Of a DNA stretch of 32,697 nucleotides, positions 20,950 through 29,285 are shown one piece after another. Each line of letters begins with the position of its first letter. The first letter of the stretch is position 1. The notes beneath the pieces were generated by a model, which ran no database searches, was not told the DNA's origin, and was given only the letters and a program-made list of their open reading frames with translations. A program made the translations under genes and the position numbers. The stretch is from Anaerolineae bacterium (GTDB lineage: Bacteria > Chloroflexota > Anaerolineae > Anaerolineales > Anaerolineaceae), in assembly GCA_021287005.1 (NCBI GenBank), contig JAJTBH010000004.1, forward strand, positions 1 through 32,697, given 5' to 3'.

Positions 20950-21384
20950 ATGACAACCGCCGATTTTTTAATCTCACAACTCAAACGGGCCGGAATGCGT
21001 ATCACACCGCAGCGTGTTGCCATTTGCACCCTTTTAACTTCAAAAGATGCCCACCCCACGGCCGCCATAATATATGAAGAGATTAAAAAAGTCTATCCCT
21101 CGCTCTCACTGATGACGGTATATAACACGCTCAACAAACTGGTCGAACTGGGTATCATCAATACCCTGGGGCATATCGGCGACGACAACGTGCATTATGA
21201 TGCCCATAACGAACCGCACATCAATCTGGCCTGTATATCCTGTCACAAAATTATCGATATTCCCAGTGAGCATGTCAACCATCTTGAGATGGAAATCTCG
21301 GCATCGCGCGGGTATAAGATTCTGGGATCGCGCATTTTATATTACGGGCTCTGCCCCGATTGTCAAAACCAGATTTCATCGTAA
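20950..21384 (+). CDS. Fur-family regulator, PerR-like
   Basis: A 144-residue metal-dependent repressor. The winged helix (about 10-75, ITPQRVAICTLLTSKDAHPTAAIIYEEI and MTVYNTLNKLVELGII) is followed by the dimerisation and metal domain. The structural zinc site is intact: Cys95, Cys98, Cys135 and Cys138. Mapping to B. subtilis PerR, the regulatory ligands His37, Asp85, His91 and Asp104 correspond to His35, Asp84, His90 and Asp103, but the His93 position is Asn92. The perfect PerR box at its promoter supports a peroxide-sensing role. No ribosome binding site is seen before the ATG. It is probably co-transcribed with the ferritin-like/VIT1 gene 29 bp downstream. Confidence 0.92.
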   Translation: MTTADFLISQLKRAGMRITPQRVAICTLLTSKDAHPTAAIIYEEIKKVYPSLSLMTVYNTLNKLVELGIINTLGHIGDDNVHYDAHNEPHINLACISCHKIIDIPSEHVNHLEMEISASRGYKILGSRILYYGLCPDCQNQISS

Positions 21385-21413
21385 AAAGAAAGTTATTATA
21401 AAGAGGCCCCCTT

Positions 21414-22286
21414 ATGGAAATGACAGTTGCACTACGTCAGCAGATACTGACTGCACAAAAAAATGAAATTACCGAACATAATGTTTACAAAAGAATTGCC
21501 GCCACCCTGCCCGATAAAAACAATGCCCGTATTCTTGAAGAAATCGCCGCAGATGAATTAAGCCATTATCATCGTTGGAAGAGTTACACCAACACCGAAG
21601 TAAGCCCCAACTGGCTGCGCGTCTGGTTTTATAGCATTCTCAGCCGGGTGCTGGGTTTTACATTTGGGATTAAATTAATGGAGCAGGGCGAAGAACTGAC
21701 CCAGATCAGCTATGCCGAGATATCAAAAATCATTCCCGATATCAAAAGCATTGAAGACGACGAAGAAAAACATGAAGAAATGTTAATTGCCATGCTGGAT
21801 GAAGAACGTCTGCATTATGCCGGTTCGGTAGTATTGGGCCTGAACGACGCTCTGGTGGAACTGACCGGTGCCCTGGCCGGTTTAACCCTGGCTCTGCAAA
21901 ACGTTCAGTTAATTGCCCTCTCCGGGCTGATCACCGGCATTGCCGCCTCTCTTTCAATGGCTGCTTCCGAATATCTTTCCACCCGCTCCGAAGAAACCGA
22001 TAAACATCCCGTGCGCGCCGCCGTTTATACCGGCATCGCTTATGTCATTACGGTGGCTTTGTTGATTTCGCCTTATCTCCTGATCAAAAACGAATATATC
22101 TGCCTGGCCATATCGTTAACCACCGCCGTATTAATCATCGCCCTGTTTAATTTTTATATTTCAGTCGCCAAAGGCGAGAATTTTAAACAACGATTTCTCG
22201 AAATGGCCGGCTTAAGCCTGGGGGTTGCCACACTGAGTTTTATTATCGGTTATTTCATCCGTATCTTCCTGGGTGTGGAAATATAA
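21414..22286 (+). CDS. Ferritin-like/VIT1 fusion, membrane iron (manganese) transporter
   Basis: A 290-residue fusion. The N-terminal four-helix ferritin-like domain (about 1-135) has a di-iron ligand pattern: Glu21, Glu48-x-x-His51, Glu90/Glu94 and Glu117-x-x-His120. The C-terminal part is a VIT1/CCC1-type membrane domain with the family's SVVLGLNDALVELTGALAGL (138-157), SLSMAASEYLSTRSEE and three further hydrophobic segments to the end. Similar proteins (MbfA in alphaproteobacteria) export iron and protect against peroxide. The location after a PerR-type regulator and PerR box fits iron or manganese detoxification under oxidative stress. AGAGG lies 10 bases before the ATG. Confidence 0.9.
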   Translation: MEMTVALRQQILTAQKNEITEHNVYKRIAATLPDKNNARILEEIAADELSHYHRWKSYTNTEVSPNWLRVWFYSILSRVLGFTFGIKLMEQGEELTQISYAEISKIIPDIKSIEDDEEKHEEMLIAMLDEERLHYAGSVVLGLNDALVELTGALAGLTLALQNVQLIALSGLITGIAASLSMAASEYLSTRSEETDKHPVRAAVYTGIAYVITVALLISPYLLIKNEYICLAISLTTAVLIIALFNFYISVAKGENFKQRFLEMAGLSLGVATLSFIIGYFIRIFLGVEI

Positions 22287-22868: not shown

Positions 22869-24212
22869 TTATTCATATTTCAGCGCAATTACCGGCACCA
22901 GGCTGGCGGCGCGTAATGCCGGATACAACCCCGAAATCAGGCCGATCAGTGTGGCAAAAACCAGGGCAAAAACAGGCAGCCACAGGGGTGTATAAACAGC
23001 CACGGTGGGCGGAGTGCCGCCGTTTTCGGCAGCCTGAGCCGTTAAAACGCTGATGGCAATCACATCGATCACTGTGCCGCCCAGCCAACCCAACAAAACC
23101 CCCATCAAGCCGCCAATAAACCCGATTCCGGCTGCCTCGCCCAGAAAGATGCTGAGTACATCGCGGTTGGTTGCACCGACCGCCTTCATCAAACCAATTT
23201 CACGGGTTCGTTCCAGAATCGCCATGGTCATGGTGTTGGCAATGCCAATGGCCGCCACCAGCAGGGCAATGGCGCCCACGCCGCCAAACACAATTTGCAT
23301 AACGACAAAAAAGCTGTTAATACCCTGCACAAACTGCTGCGGGGTATAAGCCTGGTATTGCATGTCATTAATCTGCTGAGTAATATCCACGATCTGATCC
23401 GAAGAATCAGTCTTAACCAGCAGGGTATCGTATCCATCGCGATTGCGATTTATGCGTTTGCCCATCATCCATTCGTTTAAGGGTGTCATATCATCCATGC
23501 TGATGATGACCATGCTGTCCGCTTCAGAGCGGTTTTCGGCCAGCAGTCCCGTCACCGTAAAACGCACGGTTTTATTTTCTTGTTGACCATCCTGTGTATA
23601 GCGGGTAATGACAATGCTGATCTGCTGCCCCAATAAATCCGGCGGAGCCGGGGGCTCCTGCCCGGGACGCATTTTGGGATCCATAAAGTTTTTTAACACC
23701 CAACCGCCTACAATCGCCGTACCCCGTTTTAACTCGCTGCTGCCCTTATCCAATTGGTAACTCAAAACCGAAACATCATCCACCGCCATCCCGGTTAACT
23801 GGGCGTAATTCTCCAGGCGGCCATAATGCATCACCGCCGGTCCTCTGAACGATTCGCGCGGAATGATCAACTTGACACCGGGAATGGCTTTGATTTCATC
23901 GATTGCTGCATTGGTCAACAGTTTTTGCTGCGAAGGCTGCGCGGCGGTTTCCCCGCCACCGCCCCCACCCCCACCGCCCGCTCTCATTACCATACCCGAC
24001 CCCATATCATAACGAGGCATGACCATGATCTGGGTTAAGTCGCCAATGCTGCCCAACTGAGTGGAAGCGTTACGCTGCAAACCGTTGCCCAGTGAAACCA
24101 GAATCACCACCGCCGCAGTACCGATCACCACACCCACCGCCGTCAACGCCACGCGTCCCTTGCGCCGCTTCAGGTTTTCAATTACCAGACTGAGTAAATC
24201 TACCAGTTTCAT
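22869..24212 (-). CDS. MacB/FtsX-type ABC transporter permease
   Basis: A 447-residue membrane protein with the MacB layout: one N-terminal membrane helix (about 21-43), a long extracytoplasmic domain (about 45-310), and three C-terminal helices (about 315-340, 365-395, 415-437) with the FtsX-type signature MAILERTREIGLMKAVGATNRDVLSIFLGEA. MacB-type permeases do not move substrate through the membrane as pumps do; they couple ATP hydrolysis to movements outside the membrane. Unusual is a run of nine Gly residues (AGGGGGGGGGE) near residue 80 in the extracytoplasmic domain. It is last in a four-gene operon and starts 16 bp after the secreted-protein gene; its ATPase partner is two genes upstream. 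Confidence 0.93.
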   Translation of the reverse strand: MKLVDLLSLVIENLKRRKGRVALTAVGVVIGTAAVVILVSLGNGLQRNASTQLGSIGDLTQIMVMPRYDMGSGMVMRAGGGGGGGGGETAAQPSQQKLLTNAAIDEIKAIPGVKLIIPRESFRGPAVMHYGRLENYAQLTGMAVDDVSVLSYQLDKGSSELKRGTAIVGGWVLKNFMDPKMRPGQEPPAPPDLLGQQISIVITRYTQDGQQENKTVRFTVTGLLAENRSEADSMVIISMDDMTPLNEWMMGKRINRNRDGYDTLLVKTDSSDQIVDITQQINDMQYQAYTPQQFVQGINSFFVVMQIVFGGVGAIALLVAAIGIANTMTMAILERTREIGLMKAVGATNRDVLSIFLGEAAGIGFIGGLMGVLLGWLGGTVIDVIAISVLTAQAAENGGTPPTVAVYTPLWLPVFALVFATLIGLISGLYPALRAASLVPVIALKYE

Positions 24213-24228
24213 AGGAGACTCGGCAAAA

Positions 24229-26106
24229 CTAACCCTTGCCGCCTCCGCCGATGGTTATGCTTCCACCGCCGCCGCCCCCGCCGCCTGCGGGAATTTTAAT
24301 TTCACCCGGTACGGCTTCCAGCGGAGCGCCATTTTTTAACTCCGGTTGTATCTGAGCACTGTCCAACCCCAAAAAACCTCTGATAAAGCGTAATACCCGG
24401 TCGCCAAAACTTTCTTCAATCTGAATACCCCCCTCCAGGCTGATTGCCCCGCCCGGGCCGCCAGGCTGCAAACCGGCCGGGTCGCCCGACATGGGATTGG
24501 CAGGGGCATCTTCGGCCATAACCTTCAGAGTCTGGGTGATGGTGCGCAGTTGGTTAAAATCATCATTATAGTTAATGGTGATATTAAAGGTGATCGGTCC
24601 GGCTGCATTCGGAATCGCCATTGCATCCAATGGAAAATAACCACCCGCATCAATCGTTCCAACTTGAATCACATTATTGGTCACTTCAGCCTGGTCCGAA
24701 GTTACTTTCATCGAACCCAGAATGGTACTTTTACGTCCCAGGTTGGTCACCTGAATGGGCAATGGGTTGGGCTGGCCAACCACCAACATGCCGGGGTCGC
24801 GGTAAAAAACCACTTCCACCTGCGGCAAAGCATAAACCAGCAGCGTGATCACCTGGTTGTCCACCTGCTGATTGTTTTTGGCATCGCTATAGACAAATGA
24901 AAGTTTTAACGGGTATGCGCCCGGCGCGGTATTAACATTCACAATCAGGCGGGTTTTAACCTTAATCGCCCCGGCGCGCGGAATGTCGCCCAGTACAATC
25001 AGGTTCGAAGTGCCCAACGGTGCAAAATTCGTCAGGTCGCTGTTGCCGCCCGAAGCGCTGCCCGGTTCGGGTGTCGATGAGGTGCTGCCGGTGCTGGCCA
25101 CCCCTCCGCCCACTACCATTGAAACGGCCCGCGCGTCGGCGTTGCCGGTGTTGTGCAGTTCCATTTCCAGTTCAAAACTGGTGCCCGGCTGCAAAGGGTC
25201 CACACTCGAGCTATACGCGGTAACCACCAGTTGCGAACGCGGCGATTGAGTCGGTGTGGAAGTGGACCACGACCCGCTCCCGGCTGTGGTGGCCGTGGCG
25301 GTAGCCGCCTTGGCATTAATGGTCAGGGTAAAACTCTCGGAATAGACTTCACCATTGGCGTCATTGTATGCTACTTTAACCAGCACCGTTCCGGCCGATT
25401 GGCTGCTTAATGTGCTGGCGCCGGTCATCGATTGCCCGATGCGGGTACTGGCCCCGCTCGCCAGCGAGGATAATGTACTGACGCCGCCCGTATCACGCAT
25501 TAAAAACACGTCGCTGCTGAATGTAAACACCAGGTTTAATGCCTGTCCCAAACCGTTATTTTTAAAATTAACATTTAAAGTAAAAGTGTCACCCGATCCA
25601 ATATTTCCGCCCGAATCATACCCGCTGACGATCACCATCGGGCGATTCAGAGCCGCCGGAATGGTGGCTGTGGGCGCCGGCGTCAGAGTGAGTGTGGGCG
25701 TCGCCGGCGGCGGCACGGCGCGCGTGGTTAATGTGGCCGTCACACTGTGCCCGTTGCCGTCGTCAAACACAACCGTAGTGGTTTCGGCGTCACCCAAACC
25801 GGCGTCCGACTTGATCGCCACCGATACCGTCACATTTGCCGACTGGCCGCTGGCAACACTCAACGATCCCGAACTGGCCCAGGCATTCCAGGCGCGCGAA
25901 CCGGCATTCACCGCAACCGCAACAACCTGATCGACACCGGTATTATTGGTAAGGCTCAGGTCATAAGTGACCACGCTGTTGGGTAGATCGGCTTTATCGG
26001 CCGAGGCCGGTGAAACGCTTAAACCGTCATCTGCCCGCCGCAAGGGCACGGCAGCCAGGGTCAGGATGGAAAACAAAGTCATTAAACCTAAAAGTGTTTT
26101 TTTCAT
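24229..26106 (-). CDS. Large secreted NEW3/CARDB-like protein (COG1361 type)
   Basis: A 625-residue exported protein. A hydrophobic signal segment (MKKTLLGLMTLFSILTLAAVP) is followed by a NEW3-like beta-sandwich (about 30-130, with DLSLTNNTG and VTVSVAIKSDAG), a Thr/Pro-rich linker (about 132-150), and two or three CARDB-like beta domains (about 155-265, 290-395, 400-530; repeated FELEMELHNTGNADARAVSM-like strands). The C-terminal part has a possible amphipathic helix (FGDRVLRFIRGFLGL) and ends in a Gly-rich tail with a run of eight Gly. No sortase motif is visible. It lies between the ATPase and permease genes with gaps of 3 and 16 bp, where a MacA adaptor gene might be expected, so I infer that it works with this ABC complex. 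Its ligand is unknown. Confidence 0.85.
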   Translation of the reverse strand: MKKTLLGLMTLFSILTLAAVPLRRADDGLSVSPASADKADLPNSVVTYDLSLTNNTGVDQVVAVAVNAGSRAWNAWASSGSLSVASGQSANVTVSVAIKSDAGLGDAETTTVVFDDGNGHSVTATLTTRAVPPPATPTLTLTPAPTATIPAALNRPMVIVSGYDSGGNIGSGDTFTLNVNFKNNGLGQALNLVFTFSSDVFLMRDTGGVSTLSSLASGASTRIGQSMTGASTLSSQSAGTVLVKVAYNDANGEVYSESFTLTINAKAATATATTAGSGSWSTSTPTQSPRSQLVVTAYSSSVDPLQPGTSFELEMELHNTGNADARAVSMVVGGGVASTGSTSSTPEPGSASGGNSDLTNFAPLGTSNLIVLGDIPRAGAIKVKTRLIVNVNTAPGAYPLKLSFVYSDAKNNQQVDNQVITLLVYALPQVEVVFYRDPGMLVVGQPNPLPIQVTNLGRKSTILGSMKVTSDQAEVTNNVIQVGTIDAGGYFPLDAMAIPNAAGPITFNITINYNDDFNQLRTITQTLKVMAEDAPANPMSGDPAGLQPGGPGGAISLEGGIQIEESFGDRVLRFIRGFLGLDSAQIQPELKNGAPLEAVPGEIKIPAGGGGGGGGSITIGGGGKG

Positions 26107-26109
26107 AAG

Positions 26110-26865
26110 TTAAGCCTTAACCTCATCCGAAGAATTTTCCTGCTCTTCGAGACTTTCTAAAGCACTGTGGTACTGTTCGGCCGTGACCACACTGCCATCC
26201 AGCAGGTAAATCACATGCGTGGCAAACCGTACCATGCGCGGGTCATGCGTCACCACCACCAGGGTGCGCCCGTTATGGTGCAAATCCGAAAGCAAATGCA
26301 TCACACTTAATCCACTGGACGTATCCAGATTGCCGGTGGGTTCATCGGCCAGAATAATGCCGGGGTTATTAACCAACGCGCGCGCCACAGCTACACGCTG
26401 CTGTTGACCCCCGGAAAGTTCGGTCGGTTTATGATGGGCGCGTTTTTCAAGCCCCACCAACTTCAGCAGGTCGAACGCCCGTTTTTGTCGTTCCGCCGCC
26501 GGCACACCCGCAAAACGCATTGGAAAAGCGGCGTTTTCCTGTGCACTCATGCTGGAAATCAAATTAAAGGATTGGAAGATAAAACCCATTGTCTTACGCC
26601 GGTAAATGGCCAGGTCGTTTTCATCCATTTTTTCAATGGCCGTCCCGTTGACCAGAATACTGCCGGAAGTTGGCCGGTCCAGGCCGCCCATTAAATAAAG
26701 CAGGGTGCTTTTTCCCGAACCACTGGGTCCCATAATGACGGTAAACGACCCGGCAGGGATATCCACATCCACCCCGGCCAGGGCCACCACTTTTTGCCTG
26801 CCCATCTGGAATACCTTGCGCAAATTCCGCGTTTGCACAATGGTCGTTGAATTTTGAGATGTCAT
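26110..26865 (-). CDS. LolD/MacB-type ABC transporter ATPase
   Basis: A 251-residue cytoplasmic ATPase. Walker A MGPSGSGKSTLL is near residue 45, the Q-loop GFIFQSFNLISSMSA near 95, signature LSGGQQQRVAVARALV near 145, Walker B IILADEPTGNLD, and the H-loop VVVTHDPRM. These are typical for the ATPases that partner MacB/FtsX-type permeases. The C-terminal tail is acidic (LEEQENSSDEVKA). It starts 4 bp after the Yip1-like gene and ends 3 bp before the secreted-protein gene, so it is a firm member of the four-gene operon. Confidence 0.95.
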   Translation of the reverse strand: MTSQNSTTIVQTRNLRKVFQMGRQKVVALAGVDVDIPAGSFTVIMGPSGSGKSTLLYLMGGLDRPTSGSILVNGTAIEKMDENDLAIYRRKTMGFIFQSFNLISSMSAQENAAFPMRFAGVPAAERQKRAFDLLKLVGLEKRAHHKPTELSGGQQQRVAVARALVNNPGIILADEPTGNLDTSSGLSVMHLLSDLHHNGRTLVVVTHDPRMVRFATHVIYLLDGSVVTAEQYHSALESLEEQENSSDEVKA

Positions 26866-26869
26866 AAGC

Positions 26870-27664
26870 TTAAAAGAAAGGAATCACCCCACCGCTGCCC
26901 GAAAGACCGCTGAGCTGTGCGCCGATTAATGCCGGAATGGAAGCCAGACTCATCATGACCAACAGGCATACCAATGCAGCCGCCCAGGCTTTTTGACGGT
27001 TTAAATGGGAAAAAAGCGGCACGCCTACCAACAACAGGGCCAGCAATCCCAGGCCGTAAACATCCATTTGCGCCAGCAAAGCGTTTAAGTACACACTAAA
27101 ACCCCCATCCGCCGCAACAAACCCGGATAAACCCTGTGCTTGAATCTGACGCTGGCTGACCAGCGTATAAAGCGCCTGAATCGCAAAACGCAAGGCCAGC
27201 GGCAGGCTGCACCAGGCAACCAGGTTTAATGTCATTACATGCGAGTTGCGGCTGCCGCTTAAAGTTAATGCAAAATGCAACAGGCTGCCCAGCAACACCC
27301 ATGAAAGCCACACTCCGCCCAGCGCCAGCACCGCCGGGAATATATATATAAACAGGGGGCCGCGGCTCTGGTCGGCGCTTTGTTCAAAACGGGTGACCTG
27401 CTCCTGCGTATAATATTGCATATTTTCGGCGGAGGGTGCGGCCACCTGCACGGAAGCCGCTCGCGCCGGCCCACTGATTAATACATTTAATAAAACCAGA
27501 AGGCTCAACACCAGCAGCGGGGCCAACCAAACGGCCTTTTCCTGGCGGCTGATTTCTTCCAAAGTGCGCCGTGGGTGCAGCCAGATTGGCAGCATCCATT
27601 CAAAATGCAAAGGCTTATTTGAAACTTCCTCAATAGTATCAATACTATTTTGTTCGTCTGTCAT
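26870..27664 (-). CDS. Yip1-like integral membrane protein
   Basis: A 264-residue protein with a cytoplasmic N-terminus and about five hydrophobic segments (roughly 47-66, 108-135, 148-170, 205-222, 228-255). The opening WLHPRRTLEEISRQEKAVWLAPLLVLSLL is typical of bacterial Yip1-domain proteins, in which an amphipathic helix precedes the first membrane segment. The function of bacterial Yip1 proteins is not established. It is the first gene of the ABC operon, 4 bp ahead of the ATPase gene, so a structural or assembly role in the complex is inferred. The promoter region contains nested inverted repeats. Confidence 0.8.
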   Translation of the reverse strand: MTDEQNSIDTIEEVSNKPLHFEWMLPIWLHPRRTLEEISRQEKAVWLAPLLVLSLLVLLNVLISGPARAASVQVAAPSAENMQYYTQEQVTRFEQSADQSRGPLFIYIFPAVLALGGVWLSWVLLGSLLHFALTLSGSRNSHVMTLNLVAWCSLPLALRFAIQALYTLVSQRQIQAQGLSGFVAADGGFSVYLNALLAQMDVYGLGLLALLLVGVPLFSHLNRQKAWAAALVCLLVMMSLASIPALIGAQLSGLSGSGGVIPFF

Positions 27665-27849: not shown

Positions 27850-27917
27850 TCAAAAATGAATAATAAACCATGTATAATTATCAGATAATCAATCTACCGT
27901 TACGCCGGATCGCGCAG

Positions 27918-28706
27918 ATGTTTACTATTTCACAGCATACAATCAAATTTTTTGTGCTTTTTCTCGCCATACTCACCACAAGTCTTGCCTGTTACACAAG
28001 CGATCTTCCCAATAATTTTTTTACAAATGCCACGTCAACGCCTCCGCCCGGGTTAAGAGTCTCTCAGCCTCCGGAAAACCTTCCAGGAAGTTACACCTAC
28101 CAACGTCAATATTCTGACGGACAAACCGAAGAAGGAACTTTAAAGATATCCGAATTTGATAAAGGTTACCGGCTGGAATGGATTAACAACGATTCGATTG
28201 AAAGCGGTCTAGCTTTATTAAAAGATCGTATCCTGGGGGTTGGCATCGGCCAGGGTTGCAGCCTGGCTTATTATATTCAATATGATAACTATATATTTAA
28301 AGGTCTCTGGATGGGAGAAGACGGGCTGATTTCTCAGGAAACCGTCAGTCCTTATTTCGGTCTCGTTCTGGAAAAACAAATCAGCCGGGAATATTACGTT
28401 TCCGGAATTTATGATCACGACCGGAGCAAATATAGCGGTTCATTAGCCGTCAACCGTTTACCATCAGAAGTTTATGATCTTATTCGCGAAGTGGATGATG
28501 TCTACAGGCTTTACGGCCTGGGTCTCGTGAAAGACGATAAACTCATCAGCGTCTATGGTCAGGACAACTGCAAAGTTTTATTTTATGAAATTCAACCGGA
28601 GGGTGCATTGGAAGGGATATTTGCCATGTATGGTGATCTTAAAGACACACCCTTCTATTTTTACAGCACTCGCGAAATTGGTAAAGAAACGGCGCAAAAG
28701 AATTAA
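27918..28706 (+). CDS. Putative lipoprotein with two repeated domains, function unknown
   Basis: I do not recognise a family. With the ATG at 27918 the 262-residue product starts with a hydrophobic segment ending TTSLAC (Cys25), a weak lipobox, followed by a Pro/Thr linker. Two similar units then follow (about 57-145 and 158-252). They share a GSY/SGIY start, a GL-L-KD-I/L stretch, GQGC (111-114) against GQDNC (214-218), an aromatic YYI/FYEI strand, and a KGLWMGEDG against EGIFAMYGD turn, so the protein looks like an internal duplication of a beta-rich fold. An in-frame ATG at 27870 would add 16 residues; I prefer the later start because it leaves a normal signal-peptide n-region. No clear ribosome binding site is seen for either. 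Confidence 0.7.
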   Translation: MFTISQHTIKFFVLFLAILTTSLACYTSDLPNNFFTNATSTPPPGLRVSQPPENLPGSYTYQRQYSDGQTEEGTLKISEFDKGYRLEWINNDSIESGLALLKDRILGVGIGQGCSLAYYIQYDNYIFKGLWMGEDGLISQETVSPYFGLVLEKQISREYYVSGIYDHDRSKYSGSLAVNRLPSEVYDLIREVDDVYRLYGLGLVKDDKLISVYGQDNCKVLFYEIQPEGALEGIFAMYGDLKDTPFYFYSTREIGKETAQKN

Positions 28707-28799: not shown

Positions 28800-29285
28800 A
28801 TGAACGACTCAACCAACATACCCCAATTAAGTCAATCGGAAATTGCCGAAATCTTGATGCGCTGGACCTCTGCCTTTATGCAGCACTCCATGCAAGACTT
28901 TTTATCTTATGCCCGTTCGGCTAATCTCTCCATGGCACAGATCAATGTTTTAATCTGGTTATATTACCATGGCGAAATTGAAGTCATGGGTCTTGAGAAG
29001 GTCATGCAGGTCTCCCGCCCCGCCGCCAGTCAGATGGTGGAGCGCCTTGTACAGCAGAACCTGGTGATTCGCAAAGAGTCACCCTATGACCGGCGTGCCC
29101 GGCTGGTACAGCTTTCGGAATATGGCCGCGAACTGGTTAACAATTCCATTTCACTGCGTCAGAAATGGTTAAATGAATTGATTGACACATTCAGTGATCA
29201 GGAAAAACAAACCATCGCTTATGTGTTTAACCTGATCAACCAGCGCGCCAACAGTCTGGAAGCAGATCCGCTTTTTAAAGATTAA
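28800..29285 (+). CDS. MarR-family transcriptional regulator
   Basis: A 161-residue winged-helix regulator. The recognition region VMQVSRPAASQMVERLVQQNLVIRKE (about 74-99) and the wing YDRRARLVQLSEYGREL (101-117) are typical, with flanking helices for dimerisation. MarR proteins usually respond to small aromatic or toxic compounds and repress nearby transporters or enzymes. The inverted repeat over its promoter suggests self-control; the ABC operon and the lipoprotein gene upstream are possible further targets. The ATG has no visible ribosome binding site, like that of the Fur-family gene. Confidence 0.92.
   Translation: MNDSTNIPQLSQSEIAEILMRWTSAFMQHSMQDFLSYARSANLSMAQINVLIWLYYHGEIEVMGLEKVMQVSRPAASQMVERLVQQNLVIRKESPYDRRARLVQLSEYGRELVNNSISLRQKWLNELIDTFSDQEKQTIAYVFNLINQRANSLEADPLFKD

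Follow-up and report, generated by a model that had tools for sequence, protein, structure and literature searches.

Two transporters from Bacillus subtilis, YtrEF and YknYZ, have been classed among the type VII exporters of the MacB fold (PMC11466899). The YknWXYZ system consists of the Yip1 protein YknW, the membrane-fusion adaptor protein (MFP) YknX, the ATPase YknY, and the MacB-type permease YknZ, of which YknW is thought to act on the assembly of adaptor and transporter (PMC4887032; PMC4338810), and it protects against SdpC (PMC4887032). The Ytr system of the same organism has been linked to the lipid II cycle and to wall thickness: inhibitors of the lipid II cycle induce ytr, which stimulates wall synthesis and, when overexpressed, thickens the wall (PMC12772383; PMC8060467). 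A YtrE2F2 complex has been observed, and a role of Ytr in antibiotic survival has not been confirmed (PMC12772383; PMC8060467). The deletion of ytrF alone produces no clear phenotype, and the function of Ytr is unsettled (PMC12772383).

The window, by which we mean the whole analyzed stretch of 32,697 nucleotides, comes from an Anaerolineae genome of 4.15 Mb that is 87% complete. It carries four packed genes, all on the minus strand, and each of them was found as an open reading frame where the original prediction had placed it, with gaps of 4, 3, and 16 bp according to the reading frames. The first gene (26870-27664) encodes a polytopic membrane protein of 264 residues belonging to the Yip1 family (Pfam Yip1, 50.3 bits, cut-off 28.6), a YknW-like subunit that scores 25.7 bits with the NCBIfam model YknW_fam, below its equivalog cut-off of 110 bits. 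The second (26110-26865) encodes a 251-residue ABC ATPase of the MacB/LolD/FtsE/YtrE class (ABC_tran, 118.9 bits), in which an intact Walker A motif (GPSGSGKST), signature (LSGGQQQR), Walker B motif (IILADEPT), and H-loop can be read directly, and of which the best PDB matches are MJ0796, Spr0694, MacB, LolD, and YtrE. The third (24229-26106) encodes a protein of 625 residues, which had been labeled NEW3/CARDB; the CARDB part of the label is borne out by Pfam (34.1 bits, cut-off 22.7), whereas the NEW3 match remains below the cut-off (15.0 versus 24.4). The fourth (22869-24212) encodes a permease of 447 residues matching both MacB_PCD (68.5 bits) and FtsX (76.4 bits).

As for the surroundings, a divergent gene (27870-28706, plus strand) encodes a protein of 278 residues that matches no Pfam family and resembles a lipoprotein at its N-terminus (lipobox-like LAC), and is followed by the gene of a MarR regulator (28800-29285). 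On the other side of the operon, the genes at 20950-22286 (plus strand) encode a FUR-family regulator and then a protein combining a rubrerythrin-like N-terminus with a VIT1 membrane domain, which look like genes for iron handling.

A YtrF-like permease in a conserved operon

Positions 1-442 of the permease profile aligned with positions 1-435 of the YtrF chain (9o9x), so that the homology spans the entire protein with its extracellular domain (E 5.6e-58); MacB followed behind (2e-39). The structural model likewise found its best match in YtrF (Z 24.6, r.m.s.d. 6.5, 404 aligned residues), on a par with S. pneumoniae Spr0695 (Z 24.3), and YtrF is thus the nearest solved relative. The term MacB-type permease in the original prediction agrees with the MacB_PCD/FtsX fold, but by profile the protein is nearer to YtrF than to MacB. 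The extracellular domain in the model (about residues 54-295, 23328-24053) includes a Gly-rich loop that is disordered (residues 71-93) and matches the YknZ domain 5f9q (Z 13.3) as well as the periplasmic domains of MacB. The operon shows the features of a type VII transporter, with an FtsX-type permease that has four transmembrane (TM) helices and a large extracellular domain, and with an ATPase of the LolD/MacB class.

Homologues of the CARDB protein were found in 48 of the 249 genomes in a search of the class. The exact order Yip1-ATPase-CARDB-permease occurs in 30 CARDB loci of Anaerolineae, and nine further loci cut by contig ends are consistent with it. The order is ambiguous in two (L043 and L059), and dispersed or rearranged in three (L050, L051, and L054), all from genus g50. 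The gene order is thus conserved, and the CARDB gene adjoins the transporter in nearly all genomes possessing it, both as expected from the original prediction. Because the order is kept in these 30 loci despite CARDB proteins with identities down to about 22-30% to that of the window, the four-gene packing is not a matter of chance. Genus g50 represents a natural break-up of the operon with all parts retained: the Yip1 and ATPase pair, the CARDB gene, and the permease gene lie at separate sites in G077 (L050/L149) and G121 (L051/L148), and in G077 they are found at about 178, 208, and 216 kb, respectively, on one contig. Within the phylum, a search with the CARDB profile returned no full-length relative outside Anaerolineae, only N-terminal or generic domain matches.

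Extra neighbors of the operon are local only, a PIG-L-like deacetylase in nine loci and a PilZ-like protein in five, and we therefore rejected a conserved extra neighbor as a clue to the substrate. The PIG-L/LmbE-like gene, a label read from the protein N-terminus rather than from a profile, is located upstream of Yip1 on the same strand in L032, L035, L036, L040, L155-L157, L160, and L171, all from one order, and is absent from the window. It possibly indicates a link to glycans.

The core set ATPase-CARDB-permease recurs in Actinomycetota and many Clostridia, and hence in at least three bacterial phyla. Relatives in named genomes were sought with the permease alignment, the CARDB alignment being too divergent, and the 80 closest permeases include representatives of Chloroflexota, one of which is the isolate Ornatilinea apprima (L186), of Actinomycetota, of Acetobacterium, and of many other Bacillota. 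In this sample, which was selected for its resemblance to CARDB-type permeases and is not random, a CARDB gene lies immediately upstream in 64 cases, an MFP gene in four, and neither in six, while six loci are cut. Two of the six with neither (L184 and L191) have a CARDB gene close by; orphan permeases with no neighboring CARDB gene are those of L177, L199, and L200. Of the 342 genomes in the class to which Acetobacterium belongs, 92 contain a CARDB match, and a minority of these matches are weak or N-terminal only. Acetobacterium-like operons show the order GntR-ATPase-membrane protein-ATPase-CARDB-permease-Yip1, where the GntR and YtrB/C-like labels were assigned from sequence and position instead of a profile scan, and thereby follow the layout of the ytr operon, extended by two subunits.

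The CARDB subunit also seems to have permeases of a second kind as partners. In three loci of Clostridia (L235:3412-7423, L236, and L237), a TM-anchored CARDB protein is followed by an ABC ATPase, to which a FtsX-type permease of another family with about 780 residues is added in L235 and L236; a two-component system is located upstream in L235 and L237. A literature search that covered few subscription papers found no report linking CARDB to an ABC permease operon.

The CARDB protein and the adaptor slot

At its N-terminus, the CARDB protein begins with a sequence that reads by eye like a signal peptide, MKKTLLGLMTLFSILTLAAVP (residues 1-27, 26026-26106), and that contains a predicted helix at residues 2-18 in the model, suggesting that the protein is secreted. 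The model consists of four Ig-like blocks, and its structural matches are generic Ig folds such as those of transglutaminase and alpha-2-macroglobulin; Ig folds are common and uninformative on function. Homologues range from about 280 to 1050 residues. The profile of the Chloroflexota proteins matches that of Bacillota over 513 columns (E 7e-52), and that of the short proteins from Actinomycetota and Clostridia over the last 263 columns, including the C-terminal motif (E 1e-39). The shortest forms (about 280-315 residues) are reduced to the final pair of Ig-like domains plus the C-terminal anchor, whereas longer members have extra Ig domains added N-terminally. The last two Ig-like domains of the window protein (residues 291-535, 24502-25236), the part aligned with the proteins of about 300 residues and retained in the shortest relatives, show a mean pairwise identity of 0.35-0.37. 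We infer that this C-terminal Ig pair is the transporter-proximal core and that the remaining Ig domains provide a reach of variable length. Past the C-terminal motif, only some relatives have a Gly-rich tail (occupancy 0.20), which in the window protein covers residues 586-625 (24232-24351) and is predicted to be disordered (pLDDT <50). The poly-Gly tail in the CARDB protein and the poly-Gly loop in the permease (23934-24002) of this species are not kept in distant relatives.

The CARDB protein had been predicted to take the place of the adaptor, and this position is supported by comparison within the class. Anaerolineae loci with a Yip1 gene and no CARDB gene have the order Yip1, a protein of 460-490 residues, ATPase, and permease, with an MFP (HlyD_D23, HlyD_3, and lipoyl) in the second position, as in the canonical order of YknWXYZ. 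Between CARDB operons and MFP operons, the Yip1 proteins are homologous (profile E 3e-43), but the CARDB and MFP profiles are unrelated (probability 1.5%). CARDB and MFP genes were never found together in one operon among the loci examined. Because of this mutual exclusion and the MFP counterparts in the same class, the CARDB protein can be assigned from sequence comparison to the adaptor slot, which it occupies without being an MFP. A hidden or degenerate MFP was rejected as an explanation, given the null profile comparison and the generic Ig matches of the model; the lack of an MFP fold among these matches is in itself not proof. The claim that no described system has this composition had to be abandoned in its general form, as the combination of Yip1 with a MacB-type ABC transporter is that of YknWXYZ (PMC4887032; PMC4338810), and the novelty must be narrowed to the CARDB subunit.

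In the permease tree, the CARDB-type permeases form a clade apart from the Yip1-MFP permeases of Anaerolineae, which served as the comparison (branch 1.9-2.5, support 100/100). The separate clades argue against a simple recent swap of the adaptor in one operon. Four Bacillota permeases associated with an MFP and no Yip1 fall inside the CARDB-type clade, their exact position being modestly supported.

The C-terminal motif and its relation to Yip1

The most conserved stretch of the CARDB proteins in Chloroflexota is the motif RFLRGLLGLGS, with pairwise identities of 0.60-0.69 compared with 0.24-0.39 elsewhere. In the window protein, it lies in the RVLRFIRGFLGLDS region (residues 570-583, 24358-24399), overlapping a predicted helix at residues 567-578; it reads VLRFIRGFLGLDS and ends at residue 583 before the Gly-rich tail, whereas many Chloroflexota members have it at the very C-terminus. 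The motif is amphipathic (moment 0.4-0.67), and the residues G580 and S583 are invariant across 26 sequences. A strict search of 150 class genomes retrieved five places, all of them CARDB C-termini, and we therefore rejected a general sorting signal of the class.

Two types of anchor were found among the homologues. CARDB proteins in Yip1-bearing operons of Actinomycetota and Clostridia have similar ends, such as FFKALLGLGG, FLRVVFGIGA, and FIKGIFGLS. Those of Yip1-less Bacillota have a C-terminal TM helix followed by a basic-then-acidic cytosolic tail. Outside Chloroflexota, all 10 of 10 Yip1-bearing operons encode the motif and no C-terminal TM helix, and about 54 Yip1-less operons encode a C-terminal TM helix, which in some of them escaped the hydropathy threshold and was assigned by eye. 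Most, but not all, carriers of the TM type lack Yip1 genome-wide. A strict requirement of the motif for Yip1 was rejected because of two exceptions in Clostridia (L241 and L242), in which the CARDB protein has an amphipathic C-terminus and no TM anchor, and neither the operon nor the genome contains Yip1. These two cases could help to separate lipid binding from docking to Yip1. In the permease tree, carriers of Yip1 and the motif fall into three clades and those of the TM type into a single one, so that the association amounts to about one coincident transition. Accordingly, the data suggest but do not prove a connection between the motif and Yip1.

Possible functions and comparison with described systems

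We consider it probable that the products of the four genes form one complex, in which a YtrEF/MacB (type VII) core together with Yip1 and an extracellular CARDB Ig-string would act on the cell envelope by mechanotransmission. Such a complex would comprise an ATPase dimer, a permease dimer, Yip1, and the CARDB chain in place of the membrane-fusion adaptor. Binding and hydrolysis of ATP would close and open the ATPase dimer and move the extracellular domains of the permease, which in turn would move the membrane-proximal Ig pair of the CARDB protein. The amphipathic C-terminal helix may hold the CARDB protein to the membrane, to the complex, or to both, with Yip1 as its likely helper or docking site, and the C-terminal TM helix would take over the anchoring in Yip1-less Bacillota. 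The extra N-terminal Ig domains would reach outwards. Anaerolineae are generally regarded as single-membrane bacteria. The target would most likely lie in the cell envelope, be it the wall, lipid-linked precursors, or surface polymers, and would less likely be a drug. The original idea of a mechanotransmission machine or one acting on glycans is plausible by analogy, considering the fold class and the relationship to YtrEF. More tentatively, the operon could belong to a widespread, undescribed branch of type VII transporters that uses an Ig-string for an adaptor, in which Yip1 clamps the C-terminal helix, motion is transmitted to the envelope of single-membrane bacteria, and the loss of Yip1 coincided with the gain of the TM helix.

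Another possibility, which we regard as doubtful, is an FtsEX-like regulator with the CARDB protein as an arm comparable to EnvC or CwlO, activating hydrolases of the wall or of surface polymers or binding glycans. The common fold class and the FtsX matches are in line with such a regulator, an extracellular Ig chain of variable length suits a reach into the wall, and a hypothesis likening YtrF to FtsX in this sense has been reported (PMC12772383). However, we found no constant hydrolase gene in the surroundings of the operons and no coiled coil in the CARDB model, and the autolysin idea for B. subtilis YtrF is without clear support (PMC12772383). It is also unlikely that the complex exports antimicrobial peptides or other membrane-active toxins in the manner of YknWXYZ, in which case the CARDB protein would replace YknX in guiding or releasing the substrate and Yip1 would tune the assembly. 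The Yip1 subunit and the kind of ABC core are those of the system protective against SdpC (PMC4887032), and MFP and CARDB versions coexist both in the class and in the wider permease clade, yet the CARDB-type permeases are separated from the Yip1-MFP permeases of the class and nearer to YtrF, no MFP fold was seen among the structural matches, and there is no known way for an Ig string to form the tube of an MFP. We regard it as very improbable that the CARDB protein is itself the cargo that the transporter moves or releases, or that it is a surface protein sharing only the transcript with the transporter. It is secreted-like and variable in length, and LolCDE-class machines do handle proteins, but it lies between ATPase and permease in three phyla, its mutual exclusion with the MFP points to a shared role, and the TM anchor with a cytosolic tail in Bacillota suits a subunit, not a cargo.

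If the envelope-directed complex that we favor exists, the adaptor of MacB-type transporters would be exchangeable, and the plan of Yip1 plus ABC transporter would work with either a tube-forming MFP or an Ig chain, turning "pump or mechanical device" into a testable question. The poorly understood Yip1/YknW proteins would gain a candidate role in docking an amphipathic helix, and the YtrF branch, the function of which is debated, would be joined by numerous relatives that carry an additional subunit. Relatives exist in organisms that can be grown, e.g., Ornatilinea apprima, and in the genus Acetobacterium.

Compared with described systems, the operon represents a known kind of ABC machine with a different adaptor, a variant that is real, conserved, and apparently undescribed but not categorically new. 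It resembles YtrEF in the full-length homology of the permease with YtrF and in an ATPase of the YtrE class, and GntR and another ABC pair are encoded upstream in several of the clostridial relatives. Ytr has no described CARDB or Yip1 subunit (PMC12772383; PMC8060467). Equivalents of GntR, YtrB, and YtrC/D are missing from the window operon, which makes the Ytr analogy indirect. MacAB-TolC shares the type VII fold of the permease, but ATPase and permease are encoded here by two open reading frames instead of one fused protein, the window operon has no MacA-like MFP, and MacB is more distant in sequence than YtrF. FtsEX shares the FtsX-type transmembrane fold and an ABC core that drives extracellular partners mechanically; it differs in the weak sequence match, in lacking the much larger MacB-type extracellular domain found here, and in having a coiled-coil hydrolase activator as the partner instead of an Ig-string. 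With YknWXYZ, the operon has in common the Yip1 subunit, a separate ATPase, and a MacB-fold permease, whereas the gene order is Yip1-ATPase-CARDB-permease instead of Yip1-MFP-ATPase-permease and an unrelated CARDB Ig-string stands where YknWXYZ has the MFP YknX.
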